Below are positions 24,945 through 29,358 of a stretch of 64,000 nt of DNA, piece by piece; the stretch's first letter is position 1, and each line of letters opens with the position of its first letter. The DNA comes from an uncultured Pelagibacteraceae bacterium. Lineage in GTDB: Bacteria; Pseudomonadota; Alphaproteobacteria; Pelagibacterales; Pelagibacteraceae. The notes under the pieces were generated by a model. It was not told the DNA's origin and did not search any database. It was given only the letters and a program-made list of their open reading frames with translations. Position numbers and translations under genes: made by a program. The stretch is taken from the NCBI GenBank assembly GCA_902592655.1, contig CACJFE010000004.1:17501-81500 (forward strand), given 5' to 3'.

Positions 24945-26024
24945 ATGTTTAATAATTTTTATAAAAATAAAAGAATTTTGATTACTGGACATACTGGCTT
25001 TAAAGGAACATGGCTTACACTTTGGCTGTTTATATTAGGAGCTAAAATAACAGGAATATCTAATAGTTTTTATACAAAACCTTCACACTTTAAATCATTG
25101 AAATTAAAAAAAAAAATTAAACACTTAAGTTTAGATATTTCTAAAATAGGATTATTAAGTAGAGTTATCAAGAAAAGCAATCCAGACATTGTTTTCCACT
25201 TAGCAGGACAGTCTATGGTTAAAAAATCTTTTTTAAACCCTTTAGAAACTTGGAAAACTAATTCGCTAGGGACAATTAATATTTTAGAGTGCTTAAGAAA
25301 AAATAATAAAAAATGTAGTTTAATAATCATAACGAGTGATAAAAGTTATAAAAATCTTGAAATTAAAAGAGGTTACAAAGAGACAGATTTAATTGGTGGT
25401 GAAGATCCTTACAGTGCATCAAAATCTTCAGCAGAACTTGCGATCCAATCATATTTTAAGTCATTTTTAGTTAAAGATAAAAAGATTAAATTAGCAGTTG
25501 CTAGAGCTGGAAACGTAATTGGCGGAGGGGACTGGACAGCTAATAGACTCTTACCCGATGCTATTAAATCTTGGATATTAAACAAATCTTTGACGGTAAG
25601 GAATCCGGTATCCACGAGGCCATGGCAGCATGTTCTTGATGTACTCTATGGTTATTTAATTTTAGGTTACCTTCTATCGAAAAAAAAAAAGATCAATGGT
25701 GAAGTATTTAATTTTGGCCCAAATTATAAAAAGAATTATAAGGTAATAGAAGTTTTAAAAATTGTAAAAAAAATCTGGCCAGAAATCAAATGGAAAATAA
25801 AAAAAAATTACTCTTTTAACGAAAGTAAACTATTAAAGTTAAATAGTAGTAAAGCTTTAAAAAAATTAAGATGGAAAACTAGTTTAAATTTAGATATGGC
25901 ACTAAAATTTACCATTGATTGGTATAGAAAATTTTATAAAAATCCAAAAAAAGTTTTCGAAATATCTTCCGATTCAATTGAAAATTATATAAAAGAACTC
26001 AAATATTATAATTTGGACCGTTAG
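24945..26024 (+). CDS. rfbG: CDP-glucose 4,6-dehydratase
   Basis: ITGHTGFKGTWLTLWL, FHLAGQSMVKKSFLNPLETWKTNSLGT, DPYSASKSSAE; stop codon lies inside the downstream tRNA. Confidence 0.9.
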   Translation: MFNNFYKNKRILITGHTGFKGTWLTLWLFILGAKITGISNSFYTKPSHFKSLKLKKKIKHLSLDISKIGLLSRVIKKSNPDIVFHLAGQSMVKKSFLNPLETWKTNSLGTINILECLRKNNKKCSLIIITSDKSYKNLEIKRGYKETDLIGGEDPYSASKSSAELAIQSYFKSFLVKDKKIKLAVARAGNVIGGGDWTANRLLPDAIKSWILNKSLTVRNPVSTRPWQHVLDVLYGYLILGYLLSKKKKINGEVFNFGPNYKKNYKVIEVLKIVKKIWPEIKWKIKKNYSFNESKLLKLNSSKALKKLRWKTSLNLDMALKFTIDWYRKFYKNPKKVFEISSDSIENYIKELKYYNLDR

Positions 26025-26089
26025 CTCAAAAGTAGAGTACTCCCTTGACATGGGAGGGGTAGTAGGAGCGTTACCTACACGGTCCACCA
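26015..26089 (+). tRNA. tRNA-Val(GAC)-like, non-canonical D and T loops
   Basis: 7-bp acceptor GGACCGT/ACGGTCC, D stem GCTC/GAGT, anticodon stem CTCCC/GGGAG with loop TTGACAT, T stem GTAGG/CCTAC, encoded CCA; D loop AAAAGTA lacks GG and T loop AGCGTTA lacks TTCRA. Confidence 0.72.
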
Positions 26090-29242: not shown

Positions 29243-29358
29243 GCCTGGTGATTATTGCGAAGGGGTTACACCCGATCCCATTCCGAACTCGGAAGTTAAG
29301 TCCTTCAGCGCCAATGGTACTTTGTCTTAAGACATGGAAGAGTAGGACATTGCCAGGC
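29243..29358 (+). rRNA. rrf: 5S ribosomal RNA
   Basis: GCCTGGTGATTATTGCGAAGGGGTTACACCCGATCCCATTCCGAACTCGGAAGTTAAG...GGAAGAGTAGGACATTGCCAGGC; terminal helix GCCTGG/CCAGGC. Confidence 0.96.

Follow-up and report, generated by a model that had tools for sequence, protein, structure and literature searches.

A SAR11 tRNA-Val(GAC) gene whose altered D and T loops probably dock through a substituted set of elbow pairs

The gene at positions 26015-26089 on the forward strand of the window, i.e. the whole stretch of 64,000 nucleotides of Pelagibacteraceae (SAR11) DNA analysed here, very probably encodes a functional elongator tRNA-Val(GAC) whose elbow docks normally via a substituted set of pairs. 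This reading is based on the intact cloverleaf, on covariation of the stems and, pair by pair, of the loops, on the finding that this form and the canonical isoacceptor exclude each other, and on the same elbow in apparently sole tRNA-His genes. Such a tRNA would decode the codons GUU and GUC. Docking of the D and T loops would follow the usual elbow geometry, with A18-G55 in place of G18-Psi55 and A54-U58 in place of T54-A58, and the exposed Watson-Crick pair G19-C56 would be kept as the contact surface for the ribosome, RNase P and other partners. From sequence comparison we infer the three-dimensional docking, the charging by ValRS, the binding of EF-Tu and the use on the ribosome.

Exactly this span was called as tRNA-Val(gac) by ARAGORN, with a 7-bp acceptor stem, A73 and an encoded CCA (26087-26089). 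Searched alone, it scored 49.5 bits against RF00005 with Infernal (cut-off 29) with zero broken pairs, and RNA folding gave a cloverleaf (z = -2.9); a default Rfam scan over the whole window did not list it. All four stems are paired, with no unpaired stem mutation. The D loop (26028-26034) consists of the 7 nt AAAAGTA. It was numbered by alignment to canonical D loops of 7 nt (e.g. AGTGGTA), giving A14 A15 A16 A18 G19 U20 A21, so that A18 lies at 26031 and the sole G of the loop is position 19 (26032). The T loop (26067-26073) is AGCGTTA, i.e. A54 G55 C56 G57 U58 U59 A60, in which C56 and R57 are retained. ARAGORN, Infernal and folding thus confirm the paired stems, the encoded CCA and both loop sequences described in the first-pass annotation. 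The anticodon GAC (26047-26049, from ARAGORN) reads GUC and GUU, and the valine identity bases A35, C36 and A73 are all present. Counting against an ordinary decoding tRNA, A48 faces A15, which is no standard Levitt pair. A promoter scan around the gene gave nothing above chance.

By textbook accounts, the GG/T-Psi-C elbow hardly varies among cytosolic tRNAs. Its pairs G18-Psi55 and T54-A58 are absent from this gene, where A18, G55, A54 and U58 are found instead. The predicted replacements are a tertiary pair A18-G55 (26031 with 26068) and a T-loop pair A54-U58 (26067 with 26071), and the tertiary pair G19-C56 (26032 with 26069) is retained, as in every intact SAR11 copy read. The coupling of these positions was analysed in a control set of 1293 distinct ARAGORN tRNAs from 343 loci, mostly tRNA-rich viral contigs and SAR11 and Microgenomates genomes, that leaves out every tRNA fitting the selection motif. 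Among its 7-nt D loops, positions 18-19 and 55-56 read GG/UC in 273 cases, AG/GC in 16, GA/UU in 6 and otherwise in 6. A18 and G55 occurred together 16 times, neither occurred 285 times, and one alone never (p 7e-27, a value that overstates the effect since related sequences are not independent; the cases do span many isoacceptors). For A19 and U56, neither occurred 295 times, both 6 times and one alone never, and U58 was accompanied by A54 in 36 of 36 tRNAs, with 12 A54 retaining A58. Because these counts co-vary pairwise, position 18 is coupled to 55, 19 to 56 and 54 to 58, each pair being exchangeable. The known elbow has these same contacts (PMC4810234; PMC7912444), with G19-C56 as the exposed pair contacted by the ribosome, RNase P and T boxes (PMC4810234). 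The pairing pattern is unlikely to originate from ARAGORN itself, since its bias towards canonical loops should count more heavily against two changes than against one. The present gene has two of the three exchanges, namely 18-55 and 54-58. The third, A19-U56 for G19-C56, was seen as a compensated exchange in viral contigs (e.g. L182, L213 and L233; T loop TTTGANN, D loop ..GA..). The initial description of both docking loops as altered therefore stands in that they changed together, but docking is not wholly lost, with G19-C56 possible and the changes pairwise compensated.

A working tRNA could also dock via an inter-loop double helix (16-59, 17-58 and 19-56) and not via substitutions in the normal fold. 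A possible pair of A with U at 16-59 (26030 with 26072) is found here, these two positions covary as A-U or U-A in SAR11, an interloop pair of A with U58 is possible, and the paper of Kotlova et al. 2007 on synthetic suppressors (cited in PMC4191394) shows by its title that a tRNA with a helix between D and T loop can be active. Outside SAR11, however, 16-59 is also U-U or C-C, as in phages, and so is not strictly Watson-Crick. Moreover, A18/G55 and A54/T58 are exchanged independently of one another, as would be expected if single pairs are substituted in a normal fold: the intermediate elbow states all occur, with A18/G55 alone in a SAR11 tRNA-Val (L317) and in tRNA-Phe, and A54/T58 with GG retained in phages. 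Because the 18-55 and 54-58 swaps are separable, the three-pair kissing helix (16-59, 17-58 and G-C56) was demoted, and we consider an inter-loop helix unlikely.

Covariation of the stems likewise supports a functional tRNA docked by substituted pairs. Using blastn, the tRNA-Val(GAC) gene was found in 154 of 397 family genomes, in a single copy each. In the SAR11 copies, compensating changes occur in the acceptor, anticodon and T stems (e.g. CTCCC/GGGAG, CTCGC/GCGAG, CTGCA/TGCAG; GTAGG/CCTAC, GTTGG/CCAAC, GATGG/CCATC), and position 26-44 exchanges A-G and G-A; the SAR11 pair count holds only for column pairs 16-58 and 17-57 and for the acceptor helix. The loops of the swapped form are invariant over many SAR11 species (D loop AA[A/T]AGTA, T loop AGCRT[T/A]A). 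Exact motif matches among 296 sampled Alphaproteobacteria came only from two SAR11 genomes already known as carriers. On this comparative record, the stems of the swapped tRNA-Val(GAC) are under purifying selection. The earlier judgement that random decay does not account for the gene was thus borne out, as it is a real conserved gene with invariant loops and variable, covarying stems.

The missing textbook loop motifs could still point to a pseudogene or an assembly artefact, the more so as one swapped copy, in genome G158, is decaying, with mismatched stems and U56. Unpaired stem mutations occur in the G158 copy only, however, and the identical 75-nt sequence was recovered from the independent genomes G354, G320 and G027. 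Pseudogene status is excluded because the stems covary across SAR11, and for the copy studied here it is ruled out by the compensatory changes in relatives together with its own intact stems. Of the two signs of a pseudogene named in the first-pass annotation, relatives with canonical loops at the locus do exist, but this copy lacks the other, unpaired stem mutations. Altogether, a pseudogene or artefact is extremely improbable.

The source genome (950 kb, 80% complete), whose contig C4 holds the window at 17501-81500, has a canonical tRNA-Val(TAC), and no second tRNA-Val(GAC), canonical or otherwise, was found in it besides 26015-26089. A pattern accepting both forms, applied to 141 genomes of the genus, detected the swapped gene only in 10, the canonical gene only in 82 and both in 1 (G158), with 48 lacking a GAC gene by this pattern (incomplete genomes or other forms). 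In a hand calculation with 63% recovery of the canonical gene, the chance of so little overlap is about 4e-4. Judging by gene content, the swapped gene is a replacement for the canonical tRNA-Val(GAC) and not an addition beside it. tRNA-Val(TAC) may read all four GUN codons, so that the swapped gene need not be essential. INTERMEDIATES exist: the SAR11 tRNA-Val(GAC) is canonical, has A18/G55 alone (L317, ATTAGTA/TGCAATC) or has the full swap. The tRNA-Val(GAC) of the sister family is canonical. In genus g4 the majority of the about 270 genomes (roughly 230 by hand count) carry the swapped form, and canonical and swapped forms are found at one locus, with 1-kb upstream flanks that are about 84-88% identical. 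Apart from one acceptor pair, position 18 and the T loop, the canonical gene of G468 (L311) is identical to the common swapped g4 gene. Well-supported branches of the g4 flank tree force at least 3 state changes, which would reflect either change in place or recombination.

The window's fMet and Arg tRNAs had been taken as an internal control. Their loops are canonical as described, but they are not a whole control, as the sole tRNA-Phe found in the source genome (G000:C9:15575-15646, L013) is also without GG and TTC. Its loops (D AGTAGTA, T TGCGATT) carry the A18-G55 swap, which was additionally seen in tRNA-Phe of several SAR11 genomes. In the complete SAR11 genome G003, the sole tRNA-Phe found has A18/G55 and the sole tRNA-His detected (G003:C1:205065-205138; L356 5065-5138) has the full swap, AATAGTA/AGCGTAA; the latter was not called by ARAGORN. 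Another SAR11 tRNA-His (L327) has the A18-G55 swap alone (AACAGTTA / TGCGATT). On the Daviesbacteria chromosome CP066688.1 (G572), the 44 called tRNAs include a single tRNA-His, which has the full swap and retains G-1 and C73; tRNA-Asn was not found on this chromosome, so that its tRNA survey is not exhaustive. Other tRNAs of the same chromosome deviate as well: tRNA-Arg(CCT) at 537027 has A18-G55 (AGTAGATA / TGCAACT), and TCC T loops together with an intact GG occur in Thr(GGT), Phe and Gly(TCC). One scan of genome contigs gave 8 full-swap tRNA-His genes from Microgenomates. The swapped elbow is thus apparently carried by sole, and hence presumably essential, tRNA-His genes.

In viral contigs, the loop motif was matched in 108 stretches, and 109 of 110 matches were complete cloverleaves. 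Of these, 65 are distinct, and nine anticodons are represented: GAT, TAT, TAC, GTG, GTT, TTT, GGT, GAA and CAT. ARAGORN missed 44 of these 109. A cultured example is the tRNA-Met of Acinetobacter phage Ac42. As regards a phage origin, no tRNA-Val(GAC) of the SAR11 type was among the viral-contig matches, though the motif is common there.

The window begins in the 23S rRNA, and sugar-nucleotide, NeuB, aminotransferase and glycosyltransferase genes lie between it and the 5S rRNA (29244-29358, forward strand). This island fits the SAR11 hypervariable region, which we take to be inserted between the 23S and 5S rRNA. In relatives, tRNA-Val(GAC), either canonical (L278, L268) or swapped (L067, L316), lies directly upstream of the 5S rRNA at about 70-105 nt, and in the source genome three genes intervene. 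Upstream of the tRNA on the same strand is a sugar-nucleotide dehydratase-like ORF (24945-26024; Pfam GDP_Man_Dehyd and Epimerase), whose last codons and TAG stop (26022-26024) are inside the tRNA. Because this ORF ends within the tRNA, processing of a joint transcript by RNase P would cut off the stop codon of the ORF.

On account of this setting, the first-pass annotation had proposed a non-proteinogenic or regulatory tRNA, i.e. one that donates aminoacyl groups for making surface glycan or cell envelope, or that acts as a decoy. The gene does sit among sugar-nucleotide and glycosyltransferase genes, and its loops are off consensus as in the precedent cited there, the staphylococcal tRNA-Gly. 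However, it is mutually exclusive with the canonical tRNA-Val(GAC) instead of additional, relatives hold canonical copies at the same locus, its elbow is shared with apparently sole tRNA-His genes, and no FemAB-type aminoacyl-tRNA transferase domain was found among the 20 island ORFs scanned. The proposal thus found no support, and a role as donor or decoy is very unlikely. The association of the tRNA with the glycan island is positional, the tRNA marking the 5S edge of the hypervariable region.

To our knowledge, TruB, the Psi55 synthase, is otherwise near-universal. Its TruB_N domain was not found in 13 genomes of the genus (source included, up to 94% complete) and was present in 8 of 8 sister-family genomes and in all 14 controls. 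A tblastn search with sister-family TruB gave nothing significant in the complete genome G003 (best E 0.11), and nothing significant on the Daviesbacteria chromosome, where it is a weak test across phyla. This suggests that the absence of Psi55 allowed G55. A wider scenario, which we put forward tentatively and regard as rather doubtful, is that loss of TruB in the SAR11 family lifted the constraint on U55, after which an elbow that needs no modification, first A18-G55 and later A54-U58, extended to essential tRNAs (Phe, His) and to Val. Microgenomates and tRNA-rich phages would have come to this elbow separately, by independent origin or by spread. If true, phage tRNAs could do without host T-loop modification.

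For a functional tRNA with substituted elbow pairs, the implications go beyond this gene. A compensated alternative elbow would be present in SAR11, the most numerous bacteria of the ocean, apparently also in their essential tRNA-His and tRNA-Phe, and would recur in candidate-phyla bacteria and phages. These tRNAs could serve as natural test cases for the requirements of the elbow (its constant part seems to be G19-C56), for the universality of Psi55 and T54 elsewhere, and for engineered orthogonal tRNAs. There is also an annotation blind spot, with ARAGORN missing viral tRNAs and the G003 tRNA-His, and the default Rfam scan missing 26015-26089.

The closest known system is the canonical bacterial tRNA-Val(GAC), including SAR11 genes L266, L278 and L311, with the same cloverleaf, anticodon, A73, single gene and loci; the canonical form has GG and TTCRA, whereas the swapped form has A18-G19 and AGCRU. 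The staphylococcal non-proteinogenic tRNA-Gly also lacks G18G19 and T-loop identity, but exists as extra copies beside the proteinogenic tRNA-Gly, whereas the swapped tRNA-Val is encoded once per genome and takes the place of the canonical form. Active suppressor tRNAs with altered D and T loops were reportedly selected in vivo by Zagryadskaya, Kotlova and Steinberg (NAR 2003, JMB 2004, JMB 2007). Judging by the titles of these papers, they share non-standard elbow pairs with the swapped tRNA, but are artificial. A literature search, with the laboratory suppressor papers outside its reach, gave no description of A18-G55 or of a swapped SAR11 tRNA; as far as this literature shows, and judged without those papers, the molecule is of a known kind and its elbow is new. 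The natural tRNA-Pyl of Methanosarcina is likewise without G18G19 and U54-Psi55-C56, and has a 5-nt D loop and no G19-C56 (PMC7609411), whereas the swapped tRNA-Val retains G19-C56 and its swaps are compensated. In the case of tRNA-Sec, a 16-59 interloop contact is found, as C16-C59 in E. coli and U16-U59 in eukaryotes (PMC7609411); such a contact is possible in the swapped tRNA-Val too, but tRNA-Sec has canonical D/T interactions and a long acceptor domain. Finally, Type II mitochondrial tRNAs have lost the GG and T-Psi-C motifs together with the D/T docking (PMC7609411), so that motif loss is common to both, but in the swapped tRNA-Val this loss appears to be compensated.
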